Below are positions 2,714-25,584 of a stretch of DNA of 38,304 nt, piece after piece. Location of the stretch: IMG/VR virus record IMGVR_UViG_3300045993_000326, positions 1 to 38,304 of that record. One strand, 5' to 3'. The DNA comes from a virus. The translations under genes and the position numbers were made by a program. The notes beneath the pieces are model-generated. The model was not told the DNA's origin, ran no database searches, and saw nothing but the letters and a program-made list of their open reading frames with translations. How positions within the stretch are numbered: the first letter of the stretch is position 1; each line of letters starts with the position of its first letter.

Positions 2714-3078
2714 AATAAAATGTCCGGTATTGTACACAGCTCAGGAAAATTAGTTGCCTGTTGCGGCGCAATTTTAGTTAGTACTGGGACGACATCGACC
2801 CATGATTCGGTATATCTATGACCTTTGCCACCATAAGTTCTTGGTTGATGCAATTTACCAGCTGCAAACAATCTTCTGAGTGCAAACTTGTAAACATCTT
2901 CATGATGGCCTGTATCCCAGGTTTTGTTAGCATTATAGAATTTCCAAATTTCAGCCCAATGATTATCATTTCTTGGATCAAACTTGGAATTCACAACGAG
3001 CACAAATACATCAGAAGTTTTTACAACTCCTTTGACGATATCCCGTAGGCAATAACCAAGTCTTAATCCAATTTTCAT
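2710..3078 (-). CDS. Hypothetical protein, 122 aa
   Basis: ATG 3078 is preceded by GAAGAG at 5-nt spacing, so it is favoured over the GTG two codons upstream. The sequence has a hydrophobic strand (DVFVLVVNS) then a charged helical stretch with NANKTWDTGHHEDVYKFALR, and no known motif. A GATAAATA box (3105-3098) lies 20 nt upstream and could be a late promoter. Confidence 0.8.
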   Translation of the reverse strand: MKIGLRLGYCLRDIVKGVVKTSDVFVLVVNSKFDPRNDNHWAEIWKFYNANKTWDTGHHEDVYKFALRRLFAAGKLHQPRTYGGKGHRYTESWVDVVPVLTKIAPQQATNFPELCTIPDILL

Positions 3079-3097
3079 AATCACTCTTCAAATCTAT

Positions 3098-3105
3098 TAT
3101 TTATC
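3098..3105 (-). promoter_or_regulatory. Candidate T4-type late promoter box
   Basis: Minus-strand GATAAATA, one base from the T4 late box TATAAATA, about 20 nt before the gene starting at 3078. T4 late promoters need only this -10 box. The match could be chance in AT-rich DNA. Confidence 0.3.
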
Positions 3106-3190
3106 GCAGCATTCCAAACAAGTAGATTACTATCAAAACCACTACAGTCATAGCAGTATAAAGACCTGCCTCAATAATTTTTGCTTTCAT
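3101..3190 (-). CDS. Single-span membrane peptide, 29 aa
   Basis: Starts at ATG 3190 after AAAGGACAG. Residues 10-27 form one transmembrane helix (LYTAMTVVVLIVIYLFGM) with a basic N-terminus. It is one of a group of very short membrane proteins in this accessory region. Function unknown. Confidence 0.65.
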   Translation of the reverse strand: MKAKIIEAGLYTAMTVVVLIVIYLFGMLR

Positions 3191-3203
3191 TTCTGTCCTT
3201 TCA

Positions 3204-3449
3204 TTATACTATACCAACAATTACTTTCAACTTCCAAACCGTAAGACAATAGATTTTCAGTCTATCAACGGTTTCTGTAGTATGGATAGAAAACCAAAAA
3301 GTCTGCAGTTTATCATCTACAAGTTGAGCCCAACAATCTTCGGCCCAGATCCATTCACCCATCAACTTACCAATTTTGAACTCGTGAGATGGATTTGAGC
3401 ACTTCTTCAAATCATAATGTAGACGAAGTTCGTCTTTAGTTAAATTCAT
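3204..3449 (-). CDS. Hypothetical protein, 81 aa
   Basis: ATG 3449 overlaps the stop of the RNA ligase gene by four bases, so it is probably co-translated. Tryptophan-rich (GEWIWAEDCWAQ, TFWFS). No family recognised. Confidence 0.75.
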   Translation of the reverse strand: MNLTKDELRLHYDLKKCSNPSHEFKIGKLMGEWIWAEDCWAQLVDDKLQTFWFSIHTTETVDRLKIYCLTVWKLKVIVGIV

Positions 3450-4492
3450 TCCTTAACCTTTTCAAGATACTTGTTACTAACTGCTTTAAATGAAATGCGA
3501 CGATCTGAGTTTGCCTTAAAGACAAGACCTTCACGTGGGCATCCAATCAACCCAAGCACAGACTCACCATCAGCCTTAGTTAGCAATGAGTCACATGTTT
3601 GGCCAGTCAACTTTGCTGCACGTTCAAGCACAGGTGTATCAGTCAGCCCAAGCAAACTTGTCCAAAATCTTCGTTCAACTGGATTAAAGTATTCAAACCG
3701 ATCAATGTCAAAAATATCAAACACGAAGAACATGTGCTTGGTCAAGTTGTAAATGTTGCCTTGGATACCAGGGCCGCACAGTTCACCTTGAATAGCAACA
3801 TTTTTGCCTTGTACTTCCAGTTTGTGCTTCAGTTCAAGCTCAATCGCCATCTTCCAGAATGTGTTGTCCTCAGATTCTTTCAGATCCAAGTTGCGTGAGC
3901 AGACACCAAAGTCTTCATCGCGCTTGTACACAGTCATTGAAGAGCCTTCGCACTTCTCTGTGACTTCCCATGTTTGGTGTTCAAAATGTTCTTCCATATC
4001 ACGGAAGCAGTTTTGCACACGTTCTTGATCAGTCTTGATGATGAACGATGGGAATGATCCACGAGCATCAGCAGAGGTGAACTCAGGTGGCGCTTCCCAC
4101 TTTACAATACCCAACTGTTCGGACACATCTGCACCAATACAACCATCATTGATGGGGAAAATATCCTCAGGCTCCCCAAGCACAGACAGTGGCAGCAACA
4201 GCCCTTGAGACAATTGCTTGCGCAGACGGATTGTGCGAAGCTTTTCACCTTCAACACCAAGATACGTCTTGGGGAAATGTCCCGGCTTTGTTAAGAAAGG
4301 TGCAAGTGTGCTTGGAATGAATGAATCTGGTTCTGCGTACACAACGAGATCACCCACTACATACTTGCCGACTTGGTCAACGATCCACCAGCCATTCACC
4401 CTGTAAGCACAGATCTTGTCTGCATCAGGGATAGCTTTTACTTCTGCAATCTTTTGAATAGACGCCATTTTACGAACATAAACTTCTGTCAT
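3446..4492 (-). CDS. RNA ligase, DRB0094/Rnl5-like
   Basis: An ATP-dependent RNA ligase that would seal 5'-phosphate/3'-hydroxyl nicks through a lysine-AMP intermediate. The nucleotidyltransferase motif I is visible as VTEKCEGSSMTVY (the Lys of EKCEG is the nucleophile), followed by motif-like RNLDLKE, IQGELCGPGIQ, FVFDIF, EGLVFK and a closing ISFKAVS. The N-terminal 150 residues form the OB-like extension typical of the Deinococcus DRB0094 (TIGR02306) type. ATG 4492 is chosen because of AAAGAGG 6 nt before it. Likely role: repair of nicked or cleaved RNA, for example host tRNA cut by defence nucleases. The neighbouring RNA array makes this suggestive. No polynucleotide kinase is seen in the window. 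Confidence 0.92.
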   Translation of the reverse strand: MTEVYVRKMASIQKIAEVKAIPDADKICAYRVNGWWIVDQVGKYVVGDLVVYAEPDSFIPSTLAPFLTKPGHFPKTYLGVEGEKLRTIRLRKQLSQGLLLPLSVLGEPEDIFPINDGCIGADVSEQLGIVKWEAPPEFTSADARGSFPSFIIKTDQERVQNCFRDMEEHFEHQTWEVTEKCEGSSMTVYKRDEDFGVCSRNLDLKESEDNTFWKMAIELELKHKLEVQGKNVAIQGELCGPGIQGNIYNLTKHMFFVFDIFDIDRFEYFNPVERRFWTSLLGLTDTPVLERAAKLTGQTCDSLLTKADGESVLGLIGCPREGLVFKANSDRRISFKAVSNKYLEKVKE

Positions 4493-19219: not shown

Positions 19220-19250
19220 TTTGATTTCCTTTGAGTTTCGGTATGGATCA

Positions 19251-19279
19251 ATTATACTACAACGAGCATTATGTGTAAA
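19251..19279 (-). promoter_or_regulatory. Promoter P8
   Basis: -35 TTTACA (19279-19274), 17-bp spacer, -10 TATAAT (19256-19251). TAA of the upstream gene (19282-19280) abuts the -35. The 32 bp from 19251 to 19282 are identical to those at 19531-19562 (P9). Confidence 0.9.
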
Positions 19280-19501
19280 TTATTTCCCGATTTTTGAAAC
19301 GGCATTTACTTTGCTGTCCAAGAGTTGACAGAGAAGATGCCGATATGTCCGAAGAGCAACTGTGGCAAACTTATCCGTGGGATCAGCAAGCAGATCTGCT
19401 TCTAACTGTTCAATCTTCAAAGTCAGTTCTTTTTCCTTGGCGCGATGCCGTTCAACATCAGCTTTTACACTGATGTTGTTATTTGCAAAAAAGTTTTTCA
19501 T
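19280..19501 (-). CDS. Coiled-coil hypothetical protein, 73 aa
   Basis: Under P9 with AAAGGAAAATC before ATG 19501. Long heptad-rich helix (AKEKELTLKIEQLEADLL), probably a coiled coil. Stop codon fused to promoter P8. Confidence 0.75.
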   Translation of the reverse strand: MKNFFANNNISVKADVERHRAKEKELTLKIEQLEADLLADPTDKFATVALRTYRHLLCQLLDSKVNAVSKIGK

Positions 19502-19530
19502 GATTTTCCTTTGTATTCAGAAGTTGTTTT

Positions 19531-19559
19531 ATTATACTACAACGAGCATTATGTGTAAA
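19531..19559 (-). promoter_or_regulatory. Promoter P9
   Basis: -35 TTTACA (19559-19554), 17-bp spacer, -10 TATAAT (19536-19531). TAA of the phosphoesterase gene (19562-19560) abuts it. Same 32 bp as P8, and a leader like that of P4. Confidence 0.9.
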
Positions 19560-20117
19560 TTAATCAGCTCCGTGATGTCCGATCTTCGGCTTCACAGTCT
19601 TCATGTGCCGCTTGATTTCATCCCAGCTCCACGGCATCATGTCCGCTTCGGCTCGGTTGTCGATTCCCACATCAAGAATGTTCCCATCGGTTTTGAATGA
19701 CCCATGGCAGTGTCCGTGAAGATGAAAACTTGTTTCTTCGGATTCCCAGTGCGCCATCGGAAAGTGACAGAGCACAAGCATCTGCTTCTCAACGAAGATG
19801 GTTTTCATGTGCGACACAGAAGAGCAAAGGTCTTGAAGGTCTGAGTTTTTCCGAATATGATGATCATGGTTTCCAAGAATCAAGTGGTGCTCGACTCCCA
19901 TCTGTCCAATGCGCTGCAGGGTTCTTCGGCAGAAATCCACACCTTGAAATGCTACGTCACCAAGATTGTAAAGCACATCACCAGGTACAAGAGTCTTTTC
20001 CATGTTGGAGAGAATGATCTCAGTCATTTCTTCCCAGTCTTTACCCTTCCGGGTCGTCGGACAGAACTCTTGAATGCGCCTGTGGTAGCAGTGGAGATCA
20101 GATGTAAAATAGATCAT
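19560..20117 (-). CDS. Calcineurin-like phosphoesterase (small form)
   Basis: 185 residues with SDLHCYH at the N-terminus, NLGDVAF, LGNHDHH and LHGHCHG: a second, distinct metallophosphoesterase in this window, matching the short phage/bacterial type annotated as phosphoesterase or Icc-related. A CHFPMAHW segment (residues about 115-122) provides an extra His site. The substrate is unknown. Its TAA touches P9. Confidence 0.9.
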   Translation of the reverse strand: MIYFTSDLHCYHRRIQEFCPTTRKGKDWEEMTEIILSNMEKTLVPGDVLYNLGDVAFQGVDFCRRTLQRIGQMGVEHHLILGNHDHHIRKNSDLQDLCSSVSHMKTIFVEKQMLVLCHFPMAHWESEETSFHLHGHCHGSFKTDGNILDVGIDNRAEADMMPWSWDEIKRHMKTVKPKIGHHGAD

Positions 20118-21086: not shown

Positions 21087-21278
21087 CTAAGAGAATTCAC
21101 GAACCCAAGTAAACTTTGTGTCGCCTGGTATCCACTTAACTTGTTCTTGCTTCCGAGTCGGTTTTTCAAAGTCAATACAGATACAAATCCAACCAGGAAT
21201 CTTTGAAAATTCTACTGTGGTGGCAGTGCGTACGATTTGAACAATCTTTCCGTCCTCCATTTTGCCCACAGTGATCAT
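21087..21278 (-). CDS. Hypothetical protein, 63 aa
   Basis: Under P10; AAAGGAATAGAA precedes ATG 21278. Beta-rich with KIVQIVRTATTVEF and GWICICIDF. No assignment. Confidence 0.75.
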   Translation of the reverse strand: MITVGKMEDGKIVQIVRTATTVEFSKIPGWICICIDFEKPTRKQEQVKWIPGDTKFTWVREFS

Positions 21279-21307
21279 TTCTATTCCTTTGTTTCAGAAG
21301 ATGGTCA

Positions 21308-21336
21308 ATTATAAACTATTGATGATTATGTGTAAA
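21308..21336 (-). promoter_or_regulatory. Promoter P10
   Basis: -35 TTTACA (21336-21331), 17-bp spacer, -10 TATAAT (21313-21308). The upstream gene reads through the -35 and stops at 21328-21326. The leader carries CTTCTGAAACAAAGGA as in P4 and P9. Confidence 0.85.
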
Positions 21337-21487
21337 TTTTCTTGATCAGGATAGAACCGTCATCTTGTACGGCAAAATCTAGGGTATCGCCTTCGGCCCA
21401 ACCCAGAGATTCCATTAGCCCATCTGGAAACTCAATATACAGTTCTCCATCCTCTGCTTCTTTTACCTCTAGTGTGTAAGAATTCAT
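21326..21487 (-). CDS. AbrB/SpoVT-like swapped-hairpin protein, 53 aa
   Basis: 53 residues: NSYTLEVKEAEDGELYIEFP, then a short helix (GLMESLGWAEGD), then LDFAVQDDGSILIKK. This beta-helix-beta order is typical of the small AbrB/MazE-type DNA-binding fold, as in antitoxins and transition regulators. ATG 21487 overlaps the transglycosylase stop. Its end overlaps promoter P10, so it could regulate itself or its neighbours. Inferred from pattern only. Confidence 0.7.
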   Translation of the reverse strand: MNSYTLEVKEAEDGELYIEFPDGLMESLGWAEGDTLDFAVQDDGSILIKKIYT

Positions 21488-22134
21488 AGTGCTACCGCTT
21501 TCAAGATTTCGTTGTCGTACCGCTTTTTGATATTTAGGACCTTATAAGCATAATCTGGTGCCTCACCAAGAGTGCCGTTGTACCGTAGCAGAGTTTCCAC
21601 TGTGCTCTTGGATAGATTTCTATACTCACTTAGAATTTGAGCACCCACGTCAATGTTGTTGTGTGGGTCAAATAAAGCAGTAGCAGTTGTTTTATCTTTG
21701 TGCATGCTTGCGGCAATTTGGAATAGCCCAATGGGTCCAGTTGGTGAGGTTGCTTTATAGTTGAATTTAGATTCAGTGTACATCACAGAGAGCATGAGTA
21801 CTGGGTCCACGGAATACTTTGCAGCAGCCTCATAGATCCACACTGCGTACTTTTTAGCTACAGCTACAGGTACTAAACCATCCCGAACAATGATAGCTGT
21901 GGTCTTTTCAAGCACAGTGCCTGTGTCTTGTGGTGCTTCGGCAACTGGTTTGTTCTGAAGATACAGAGTCTGATCTCGTATTACATTAAGATACATTACA
22001 GAGCCAAGCAAAACTATGGCAATGAGAACATAAGTAGTATACTTGATCACCTTGAAAGTTTGACTTTCCATAATTTTGGGAATAGAAGCAAAAGGCTTCA
22101 ATATCACCATTTTTGGTAATTTATTGATTTTCAT
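21484..22134 (-). CDS. Membrane-anchored lytic transglycosylase-like protein
   Basis: 216 residues with an N-terminal transmembrane helix (about 32-50, TTYVLIAIVLLGSVMYL) and a soluble SLT domain. The catalytic Glu is E121 in MYTESKFNYKATS, followed by GPIGLFQI (136-140) as in soluble lytic transglycosylases. It would cleave the glycan strands of peptidoglycan, either in lysis as a membrane-held endolysin or in virion entry. No clear ribosome site precedes ATG 22134, and a 6-bp hairpin lies just before it. Internal ATGs at residues 9 and 22 are possible alternative starts. Confidence 0.85.
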   Translation of the reverse strand: MKINKLPKMVILKPFASIPKIMESQTFKVIKYTTYVLIAIVLLGSVMYLNVIRDQTLYLQNKPVAEAPQDTGTVLEKTTAIIVRDGLVPVAVAKKYAVWIYEAAAKYSVDPVLMLSVMYTESKFNYKATSPTGPIGLFQIAASMHKDKTTATALFDPHNNIDVGAQILSEYRNLSKSTVETLLRYNGTLGEAPDYAYKVLNIKKRYDNEILKAVAL

Positions 22135-22168: not shown

Positions 22169-22369
22169 TTAAACTATTTTGATCGATTTGGGATCCACAA
22201 TACCTGCTGGATCTATAATAAAAGAAATCTCATATCCATCTATAAATGCATAGGCTCTATCACCTTTGAGTATATAGCAATGCTCAGAGTCGTCAATATA
22301 GATGACCTTCTTTATTGTATAAAAAGGAAGTTCATCAACAACTTCATTTGATTTTAACACAACTTTCAT
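22169..22369 (-). CDS. Hypothetical protein, 66 aa, displaced by the Doc insertion
   Basis: ATG 22369 stands directly after the Doc stop; an upstream in-frame start is inside Doc. Protein MKVVLKSNEVVDELPFYTIK ... is beta-rich and ends DPKSIKIV. Its first codons lie in the 23-bp repeat (22350-22372) whose second copy at 22866-22888 starts a truncated frame MKVVLKSKEEVNYGKI. This indicates that the ancestral gene once directly followed the SegE-like gene. Confidence 0.75.
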   Translation of the reverse strand: MKVVLKSNEVVDELPFYTIKKVIYIDDSEHCYILKGDRAYAFIDGYEISFIIDPAGIVDPKSIKIV

Positions 22370-22372
22370 TTT
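22350..22372. repeat. 23-bp direct repeat, copy A
   Basis: Identical over 23 bp to 22866-22888 and in the same orientation. The pair brackets the Doc module and looks like a duplication of the start of the gene at 22169-22369. Beyond the 23 bp the match continues weakly. Confidence 0.85.
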
Positions 22373-22709
22373 AGAATAGTAATCTATTAACCTCAAGCAC
22401 TGTCATATTCTTTGAAGCAGCAATTTTTAGAATTACTTTCTCCATTTTATCTTCTGGCAATGCTTTAAGTTTTAAAAGATCACATAGTGCGTAATAAGTT
22501 ACGGTAGCCGTTCTTTTATTCCCATCGGAAAATGCATGATTCTTAGTAATACCAAGAACAATAGAAGAAACTTGTTTTGTTGGTTTCTTATAATAATGCC
22601 AAGATGAAATTGCAGAACCAACCAGGGACTTATTCAGAATAGAATAACCTAAACTTTTATTAACTTCTATAATTCTTGATTCTGTTAAGTAATCTTCTAT
22701 TTCATGCAT
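22371..22709 (-). CDS. doc: Doc-type Fic toxin
   Basis: 112 residues with the Fic/Doc core NHAFSDGNKRTA at about 57-68 (H58, D62, N64, K65, R66), the signature of phage P1 Doc. Doc proteins modify a translation factor (P1 Doc phosphorylates EF-Tu) and arrest growth until neutralised by an antitoxin. ATG 22709 overlaps the end of a 48-residue gene directly upstream, the expected antitoxin position. Short and complete, with the helical frame that surrounds the Fic core. The exact target is unknown. Confidence 0.85.
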   Translation of the reverse strand: MHEIEDYLTESRIIEVNKSLGYSILNKSLVGSAISSWHYYKKPTKQVSSIVLGITKNHAFSDGNKRTATVTYYALCDLLKLKALPEDKMEKVILKIAASKNMTVLEVNRLLF

Positions 22710-22848
22710 CTTTAAGTTTATCTAATAAAGCTTTATGCAACTTAATTTGTTTCAAAGCAGATAACATGAATGGATCATTGAGAGGAATTTTTTCGCTCAA
22801 TTTTTTCTTTTCCTGTAGAATAGGTGCTTTTTGTTTAGATTTTTCCAT
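22702..22848 (-). CDS. Candidate antitoxin partner of Doc, 48 aa
   Basis: ATG 22848 follows AAGAGGTAAATT, a strong ribosome site. The product is basic (MEKSKQKAPILQEKKKLSEK) then helical (PFMLSALKQIKLHKALLDKL). Its stop overlaps the start of doc by 8 nt, as in toxin-antitoxin operons. It has no clear Phd domain, so it is antitoxin by position only. The ribosome site itself lies within the direct-repeat copy B and its degenerate extension. Confidence 0.65.
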   Translation of the reverse strand: MEKSKQKAPILQEKKKLSEKIPLNDPFMLSALKQIKLHKALLDKLKDA

Positions 22849-22865
22849 AATTTACCTCTTCTTTA

Positions 22866-22888
22866 GATTTTAACACAACTTTCATTTT
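22866..22888. repeat. 23-bp direct repeat, copy B
   Basis: Second copy of the repeat at 22350-22372. It contains the stop of the SegE-like gene and an ATG that opens a 16-codon truncated frame ending at TAA, a relic of the downstream gene. Confidence 0.85.
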
Positions 22889-23328
22889 GTGTATATTTTC
22901 GACAAGTGATCTGATCTAACGCGGCACATTATCCACTTGTTATAGAATTTACTTGGGTTGAGCAAACAATCCGTTTCAAACTGGATCTTCGCTTCATAGT
23001 ACCCAAGCTCCGTGAGAGTAGAACAAAAGCGTAAAATTTCTCGTTTGAAGTTTTCTTTGCCGAGTTTTTCAACATCTGACTTGAGTTCTTCCGATGAACC
23101 ATAGTAATCTCTCCAATCGGAGTCCACCTGAGTTCTGATCTTCTTTTTCTTCTTAAGACCTGTAGATTTAACTTTTACAGTTCTCACAGAAGTTTTCTTG
23201 AAGGTAGATTTCTTTTTTCCAAAATAGCTTCTACCATCTATCAAGTTTGTGATGCAATAAGTAAAGCCGACAAATGAAGGATCAATTTCATCTACCGGCT
23301 TATTTTCATAAAACCATGTCATAATCAT
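22882..23328 (-). CDS. SegE-like GIY-YIG endonuclease
   Basis: 148 residues with a GIY-YIG variant: FTYCITNLIDGRSYFGKKK (Y24, Y35-F-G) and SDWRDYYGSSEE, as in the SegE family of T4-type phages. FETDCL near the end may hold the metal-binding Glu. Such enzymes cut DNA and may act as mobile homing endonucleases. Start ATG 23328 (or 23322); a hairpin overlaps it. Between the RNR gene and the Doc cassette this is a likely mobile hotspot. Confidence 0.8.
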   Translation of the reverse strand: MIMTWFYENKPVDEIDPSFVGFTYCITNLIDGRSYFGKKKSTFKKTSVRTVKVKSTGLKKKKKIRTQVDSDWRDYYGSSEELKSDVEKLGKENFKREILRFCSTLTELGYYEAKIQFETDCLLNPSKFYNKWIMCRVRSDHLSKIYTK

Positions 23329-23358: not shown

Positions 23359-25584
23359 TTAGAATGTTAGTTCACAAACTCCACCTGAACATGCCGCACC
23401 AGCGAGAGAATCTACGTCTACATACTGTTGAGCACGAAGTTCCTTTGAGAAGTCGATGTGGTACATAGACCGGTTAATGTTGCTCCATTTGTGTAGATTG
23501 TAGCAATCCTTGAGGCAAGCGATCATTTTATCCAAGTCGTCAGAGAAGTAGTTGGCAGCAAACTTAGTGGCTCTACGGATCCAGTCACGCTTCAGCAAAT
23601 CTTCCGATTCAGCCGAGAGTTTGAGTCCCTTACCTTGCATTGTGTCACAGGCCAACCAAAGATTCTCATTGTACGCACGAAGTGCTTCAACGATAAGACC
23701 TGAGGCAAACAAGGAACCTTCGCCGTGAATCTTCACAATCTTTTCAAACGTAAGCACTTCGGTGAATGGTGCCTGAGCATATGCCTTGTCACCAGAACCT
23801 GCCATAAGAGAAACACCGGCAAAGAACTGGCGGTTGTCGAATAAGTATTGCTCTACTTCATCCCAGTTGTCTACGGTAATGGTGTTGGAAACATTGTGAC
23901 GAAGTTTTGGATGAGCGCAGAGTTCTACATTAGTACCGTATTCGACCCAGTACTGTTGAGCAAGTTTCACATACTCAAGTTGTTTCACACCAAGTAGTTC
24001 GGACTTGTACTTAGAACCAGGCTTGGTAACAATTGGGAATGCCACCACGACATCGGTACCATTAGATGACCACACAGATTTCTCAACCATGCGAGGATTG
24101 ATTTCCATGATGTGCTTGGCAACTTCGTCGTTCACATTCATTTGCACATGACGGAAGAACTGTTCAGCATGTTCACCATGGATACCAGAACCAGATGCCA
24201 ACAGAGTAGATGCATTACCAGATGGTTTCACACAAGTAGTTCTTGCTGCACGGTTGATACCGATAAGAGCAGCAATTTCTGCATTGATTTCCTTGACGAG
24301 AGTTGCGCCAGCAATCATGTTCTCTTTGTCAAACAGAATGTCCGGATTGTTCATCCAACCCGTGATAGAGCAACCAATAAGTGCTTCACGGTCTGTAATC
24401 TCTTTGGTTTCCTTTGAGACGTATTTAAAGTTTGAATACCCAGCCTGAATAGTACCAAGAATTGCAGAGGCACGGCAAGCACGTAGGAAAGTTTCCTTGT
24501 CAACACACTTACGACCATTGATTTCCGTGAGATTACAGAATTGGAAACCGGAGCGACCATCTTCTGTTTGTGGCATCATACCGATTTCAACACATGGATT
24601 GAACATGAAGTCATCCGAGTCAGCAAAGATGAAACCTGGCTCACCAAATTCCTTAACGGACTTCATAATCAGAGCCCATTCGTCACGCTCAAGATTATCT
24701 CGGATAATGAGAGCAGAATTGTTTGACCGACCACGTTGTGGGTTTGTAACAAACCAGTCACCCGTCTTGGCTTTCAGCATATCTTGGTCATCTTTATCAA
24801 ACACACAGATCGTAGCAGACCTACGGACACCACCAGAAAGAACTGCATCCGACATATGCATAACAAAGTCGTAGGCTGAAATGGTGTTAAACTTACTTAC
24901 AGGCTTTTCCTCAAGTAGGCTTTCAAGAACATCTTCACATTTGATCAGAGCAGCTCGGAGTCCTTCTGGGCCGGGTGCCTTGAAACCACCAGAGATTTTT
25001 GCACCTTCTGGACGAATCTTGGTAAAGTCAAAGTGAACTTGGCATCCGCGGTACTCTGGGTGAGTTGCGCCTTCGGTAAAATATGAACTTAACAGAACAC
25101 CAAACGCTTCGGACCAACCTTCAATTGAATCTGGGATCTGATAGAGTTTAACCTTCTTTTGGGAACGACGAGCAATGTTTGGAAGTTTGGCAATACGTTT
25201 TTTGCCAACAGAGAAACCAACACCACAACCCGAGAGCATGAGATACATACATTCATTAAAGAATGCTGGACGGTCGACATAAGAGACCGAACAGTTGTAC
25301 ATACGAGATTCATGTTTAAAGATCTGTTCACCACCGAACTGAAGGGCGCGTTGAGCACCAAGAACTAATTTTTCGGTATAAGCTTCTTGTGCATATTCTA
25401 ATGCTACTTCCAATTCTGGGGTCATTTTGTCGGCATACTTTTGCCGATGCATGTTCATTACTCGAGCTACCGATTCTTCCCAAGTTTCATACCCACCTTT
25501 AGCTTCGTCCCATCTAGAGTAACCCATATAAAATTTTGATTCCGCCAGCATTAGGTTACCTGAATGTTCTTGTTCTTGTTGCAT
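23359..25584 (-). CDS. Adenosylcobalamin-dependent ribonucleotide reductase (class II)
   Basis: 741 residues, the length of the monomeric class II enzyme. It reduces ribonucleotides (in the monomeric type, triphosphates) to deoxyribonucleotides using vitamin B12, supplying dNTPs for phage DNA. Visible signatures: MYNCSVSYVDRPAFFNE (C98), FQFCNLTEIN (the active-site Cys and Glu region), ASGSGIHGEH, and a C-terminal redox pair CSGGVC (C732, C737). It does not look like the two-subunit class I enzyme used by T4. It runs directly after the primase gene. Confidence 0.9.
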   Translation of the reverse strand: MQQEQEHSGNLMLAESKFYMGYSRWDEAKGGYETWEESVARVMNMHRQKYADKMTPELEVALEYAQEAYTEKLVLGAQRALQFGGEQIFKHESRMYNCSVSYVDRPAFFNECMYLMLSGCGVGFSVGKKRIAKLPNIARRSQKKVKLYQIPDSIEGWSEAFGVLLSSYFTEGATHPEYRGCQVHFDFTKIRPEGAKISGGFKAPGPEGLRAALIKCEDVLESLLEEKPVSKFNTISAYDFVMHMSDAVLSGGVRRSATICVFDKDDQDMLKAKTGDWFVTNPQRGRSNNSALIIRDNLERDEWALIMKSVKEFGEPGFIFADSDDFMFNPCVEIGMMPQTEDGRSGFQFCNLTEINGRKCVDKETFLRACRASAILGTIQAGYSNFKYVSKETKEITDREALIGCSITGWMNNPDILFDKENMIAGATLVKEINAEIAALIGINRAARTTCVKPSGNASTLLASGSGIHGEHAEQFFRHVQMNVNDEVAKHIMEINPRMVEKSVWSSNGTDVVVAFPIVTKPGSKYKSELLGVKQLEYVKLAQQYWVEYGTNVELCAHPKLRHNVSNTITVDNWDEVEQYLFDNRQFFAGVSLMAGSGDKAYAQAPFTEVLTFEKIVKIHGEGSLFASGLIVEALRAYNENLWLACDTMQGKGLKLSAESEDLLKRDWIRRATKFAANYFSDDLDKMIACLKDCYNLHKWSNINRSMYHIDFSKELRAQQYVDVDSLAGAACSGGVCELTF

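Follow-up and report, generated by a model that had tools for sequence, protein, structure and literature searches.

Doc toxins are defined by the motif HxFx(D/N)(A/G)NKR, where a lysine in position eight points to an EF-Tu-inactivating kinase (PMC4177925), and residues 52–73 of the antitoxin Phd alone inhibit Doc (PMC9207808). In T4-type phages, work cited in PMC4503421 describes PeSL cassettes, early promoters occurring as repeated segments that border exchanged gene modules. The free-standing homing endonuclease genes of T4, segE included, contain embedded promoters for the genes downstream (PMC2988022), and SegB, an endonuclease of the T4 Seg family, promotes the gain of nearby useful genes by segment amplification (PMC13096335). 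The locus described here lies in a viral fragment of 38,304 bases (the window). Portal, head protease, scaffold and Gp23-type capsid genes were found in the window and place its source among the T4-type phages. A DNA search among named phages gave no match, and an RNA family search found none. The locus is read from the minus strand in the order ribonucleotide reductase, segE, 48-aa gene, doc, ORF66 and SLT transglycosylase, with the following features.

23359–25584, minus strand: ribonucleotide reductase gene, the upstream neighbour, kept in relatives
22882–23328, minus strand: SegE-type GIY-YIG homing endonuclease gene (Pfam SegE_GIY-YIG, 2.9e-29)
22867–22895, minus strand: promoter A, with −35 TATACA (22890–22895, inside segE), a 17-nt spacer ending in TGT, and −10 TAAAAT (22867–22872)
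22866–22888 (31-bp copy 22858–22888), minus strand: left repeat copy, holding the extended −10 of an early-type promoter and a remnant of the ORF66 start
22835–22885, minus strand: remnant reading frame of 16 codons, MKVVLKSKEEVNYGKI and then a stop, a broken copy of the ORF66 start
22855–22860, minus strand: AAGAGG, ribosome site for the 48-aa gene (contig L001 has AAAGGA in this position)
22702–22848, minus strand: 48-aa gene, putative antitoxin, its last 19 residues those of the L001 homologue
22371–22709, minus strand: doc, Fic/Doc-family toxin of 112 aa with motif HAFSDGNKR (Pfam Fic, PHROG 577, P1 Doc fold)
22350–22372 (31-bp copy 22342–22372), minus strand: right repeat copy, holding an extended −10 only, and the ORF66 start
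22169–22369, minus strand: ORF66, function not assigned, its start duplicated; homologues directly follow segE in relatives
21484–22134, minus strand: SLT transglycosylase gene, the downstream neighbour, kept in relatives

The two copies of the repeat are identical over 23 bp (22350–22372 and 22866–22888) and extend to 31 bp with two mismatches (22342–22372 and 22858–22888); their starts are 516 apart, and 493 bp separate the 23-bp cores. The number of exact repeats of at least 23 bp expected by chance is about 1.6e-5 for the window as a whole and 5e-7 at distances of up to 600 bp. The coordinates thus confirm an earlier note on this DNA, which had described exact 23-bp repeats around a 493-bp segment with the 48-aa gene and doc. 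The same note had the left copy opening a broken ORF66 start and the bases after it supplying the cassette's ribosome site, and both can be read in the sequence, as the 16-codon frame MKVVLKSKEEVNYGKI and as AAGAGG in front of the 48-aa gene. The stop of segE (TGA) and the ATG in the left copy overlap, and the 48-aa ORF shares 8 nt with doc. Among the exact repeats of at least 16 bp in the window, 15 of 17 are promoter pairs; no stable stem-loop was found at the cassette borders. The best PHROG match of the SegE-type endonuclease (22882–23328) is PHROG 447, whose label, NAD synthetase, looks misannotated.

Eleven related contigs (L003, L004, L016, L018, L033 and the L008 group) carry segE, then a gene of the ORF66 family, then SLT, with nothing between. 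This is the order that the earlier note had proposed for the ancestor, a SegE gene followed by the gene at 22169, and its presence in 11 contigs without the cassette supports the inferred ancestor. A scan of the viral collection, with one ambiguous base allowed for the base of L003, found the 23-mer in 11 other viral contigs as a single copy each; L030, one of these, ends just past the 23-mer, and L016 is without it. The comparison with relatives lacking the cassette that the note had called for therefore returned the same gene order, with one repeat copy wherever the 23-mer is present. No Doc-like gene was found anywhere in the 192-kb record of L003. When the flanks were joined at the repeat by script, an intact promoter and the ORF66 reading frame were restored, so that recombination between the copies would excise the pair exactly. 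The two genes have the look of an insertion between segE and ORF66, or else of an allele that segregates there. The reductase gene beside segE also varies: L004 and L033 have at the same place a different, much diverged reductase of 843 aa (L004 1954–4485 versus L003 2282–4528), and in L033 about 480 bases (2847–3329), possibly an intron or an inserted gene, interrupt the match to the reductase. The reductase of phage KLEP7 (L079) is likewise annotated in two pieces.

Promoter A points into the 48-aa gene, and its −35 sits in the 3′ end of segE. Its elements follow the architecture of T4 early promoters, which consist of −35, TGn and −10 (PMC2988021). In the L003 record, the pattern TGnTAwAAT occurs at 0.67/kb upstream of genes versus 0.09/kb in gene bodies, and the matches have a common extended consensus, TAATTTACACATAAT..TTGTGnTATAAT. 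A matrix built from 14 L003 sites, with the cassette locus left out, identified 12 clear promoters in the window, scoring 19.3–44.4; the next site scored 12.0, and the best score in five simulated sequences was 13.1. The left copy (promoter A) ranks twelfth at 19.3 and was also found by a generic promoter scan. In the right copy the −10 block is good and the −35 poor, because the end of doc replaces the −35 side. The matrix also finds a promoter at the empty sites of L004, L008, L018, L033 and L016 and at the left border of the occupied site in L001 (21.8–27.1, with L001 itself at 21.8). The promoter of L003 at this site is degraded, with a score of 6.1, which counts against a promoter-exchange reading. 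Silent differences at the ORF66 start affect 14% of same-residue codon comparisons over codons 1–7 versus 36% from codon 10 on, an unusual silent-site conservation of the kind expected where a promoter lies within a coding region. Since the frame MKVVLKSKEEVNYGKI has its ATG downstream of the −35 but upstream of the −10, RNA from promoter A would not contain this start codon, and, judged by its position, the frame would be present only on read-through RNA. The earlier note overlooked the promoter content of the repeat, and the repeat makes better sense as a conserved stretch of promoter.

The assignment of the toxin to Doc is good on both sequence and predicted structure. The Pfam Fic/DOC model matches at 4.7e-7 (31 bits, above the cut-off of 24) and the Doc-like toxin family PHROG 577 at 2.1e-10. 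The motif HAFSDGNKR, present in both the window and L001 proteins, fits HxFx(D/N)(A/G)NKR. The predicted structure (pLDDT 76, from a two-sequence alignment) has six helices corresponding to the six core helices of the Doc fold, and chains of P1 Doc are its top structural matches (Foldseek, VIA), with a Z of 8.7 and an rmsd of 3.3 over 104 aligned residues; the first unrelated chain, at Z 4.9, falls well below. A sequence profile search of solved structures gave no match, a search of named phages and plasmids returned weak, partial matches only, and no relatives of Doc or of the antitoxin were found in bacterial genomes.

A second occupied lineage is represented by contigs L001 and L002, which are identical over 4 kb and carry a 43-aa gene and doc between segE and ORF74, a gene related to ORF66. 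The L001 Doc protein is 72% identical to that of the window, and the distance from the −10 to the start of the small gene is 17 nt in both. No long repeat was found in L001/L002; a short match at the L001 borders was not counted as a matching repeat, as the promoter consensus could explain it. A search for Doc in 26 related viral records returned only the two contigs already known, and the known occupied alleles number two. The suggestion that the same pair be sought elsewhere thus yielded a second copy in L001/L002, at the same site only, and no bacterial copies. L001 also has a second endonuclease-like gene (3429–4304), which lies between the reductase gene and segE and is read from the other strand; it weakly matches the group I intron endonuclease family.

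Over its last 19 residues the 48-aa protein is identical to its 43-aa homologue in L001, yet 11 of the 19 codons differ. Between the same two lineages, dN/dS for Doc is about 0.08 with a dS of about 2.4, a value near saturation that makes the ratio rough. The identity of these 19 residues despite silent changes, together with the dN/dS of Doc, indicates that both genes are old and under selection. Family searches with the 48-aa and 43-aa proteins gave no credible match and recognised no DNA-binding domain, though a divergent one is possible; with none visible, the antitoxin probably cannot repress its own operon as Phd does. Because the C-terminal segment of Phd alone inhibits Doc, a protein of 48 aa is in principle large enough, and the conserved C-terminal 19 residues fit a Doc-neutralising segment. 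We infer that the 48-aa protein would neutralise Doc. That the genes are no toxin–antitoxin pair, Doc having another role and the 48-aa gene being unrelated to it, appears improbable to us; the missing family match of the small protein and the score of Doc under the narrower DOC_P1 model (29 bits, below the curated cut-off of 38.65) would suit such a view, but the two lineages share their gene order and the 8-nt overlap, purifying selection acts on the C-terminus of the antitoxin and on Doc, and the top fold match is P1 Doc.

The origin of the borders can be explained in several ways. The earlier note had proposed that the toxin pair arrived later with a 23-bp target duplication, that is, by a transposon-like jump whose staggered cut would have doubled the ORF66 start. 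Such a jump would account for the exact repeat on either side of the pair and for the corresponding empty site of relatives, but neither a transposase or integrase nor terminal inverted repeats were found nearby, and the sole other known copy of the pair occupies the same site, with none elsewhere and no long repeat around it in L001/L002. The 31-bp copies, although exact over 23 bp, differ at two sites, and each matches a different natural empty-site allele: the left copy, TCTAAAGAA, is that of L033 and L003, and the right copy, TCAAATGAA, that of L004. A single duplication is therefore unlikely, since it would leave identical copies, and later mutation would have to strike exactly these alleles; in principle, mutation or conversion at a later time might still account for the two differences. 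We regard the transposon-like origin as unlikely, and this part of the earlier note is not supported. The segE gene, too, looks like a mosaic, since over the first 270 bases it is nearest to L004/L008 and at its end nearer to L016, L003 and L001, and recombination between phages at the promoter and ORF66 start explains the mosaic and the borders better than a transposon does.

Two further histories were considered. In one, slippage during replication or repair first produced a tandem duplication of the promoter region, and illegitimate recombination later captured the pair between the copies. L016, an empty site, does carry a tandem 30-bp promoter repeat with 80% identity at the very place (3930–3989, between segE and ORF74), but this is the other, ORF74-type allele, and no tandem intermediate was seen for the window-type allele, which leaves the route unlikely. 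In the other, the module is ancestral at the site and most relatives have lost it by recombination between the flanking repeats. The two occupied alleles, anciently diverged with Doc dS near saturation, share the site and the promoter-to-start spacing, as that history would predict; against it, the closest relative by the reductase gene, L003 (dS 0.76), is empty, as are several divergent groups of alleles, so that several losses would be needed. We consider an ancestral module doubtful, though it keeps some plausibility.

Probably, then, the locus is best read as a promoter-anchored, exchangeable Doc module at a conserved early-type promoter between segE and ORF66. The 48-aa antitoxin gene followed by the Doc toxin gene would form an optional module of T4-type phages, gained or lost by homologous recombination at the promoter/ORF66-start segment during co-infection; the SegE-type endonuclease encoded next to it may help its transfer by making double-strand breaks, and no transposase would be used on entry or exit. 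If the left and right copies recombined with each other, the module would be lost precisely and the empty site restored. Doc would phosphorylate host EF-Tu and so stop translation, and the short antitoxin would bind Doc through its conserved C-terminal segment. The antitoxin would probably exert no self-repression, and the phage promoter would set expression. A more speculative extension, possible but held only tentatively, is that an early promoter in the end of segE marks a swappable slot, where a promoter-dependent Doc with a minimal, non-DNA-binding antitoxin is exchanged by recombination at the promoter and perhaps acts as a weapon against co-infecting phages.

Other promoters in the window were compared with L003. 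At 19280–19501 a gene lies between two near-identical promoters, and L003 has a different gene there. The gene encodes 73 aa, its two promoters share an exact 32-bp repeat (19251 and 19531), and L003 has a longer, different gene in its place between the same promoters (stretches concerned: 19220–19560 of the window and 11580–12060 of L088). The promoter at 21308 (21278–21326) is the point where L003 carries about 5.9 kb of extra genes. Junctions between the window and L003 were broken at 8 of 11 promoters versus 42 of 68 other junctions, which is not significantly more often (Fisher p 0.37), and a general rule that promoter junctions break more often along the window is thus not supported.

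Compared with Phd-Doc of phage P1, the window module also has a small gene upstream of and overlapping doc, a Doc motif with the lysine, and in P1 Doc its closest solved fold. It differs in that the putative antitoxin of the window and L001 is only 43–48 aa, with neither a recognisable DNA-binding domain nor a Phd sequence match, and in that the module runs from an early-type phage promoter in a T4-type phage. With the PeSL cassettes, as far as the account cited above describes them, it shares early promoter copies at the borders of an exchanged module; unlike them, the window site has a promoter and no stem-loop, one of its repeat copies keeps only the −10, and the segment also encodes a gene start. 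Where the T4 endonuclease genes embed promoters for downstream genes, the one in the window points into an optional toxin module next to segE, and in contrast to SegB-driven amplification, we infer a single insertion or loss at this locus and no amplification. The locus offers a natural contrast between T4-type phages with and without a toxin module, the exact border of which is the phage's own promoter, and so provides a single defined site at which module exchange through promoters can be tested. It also raises the case of a Doc pair with an antitoxin seemingly too small to regulate its own operon.
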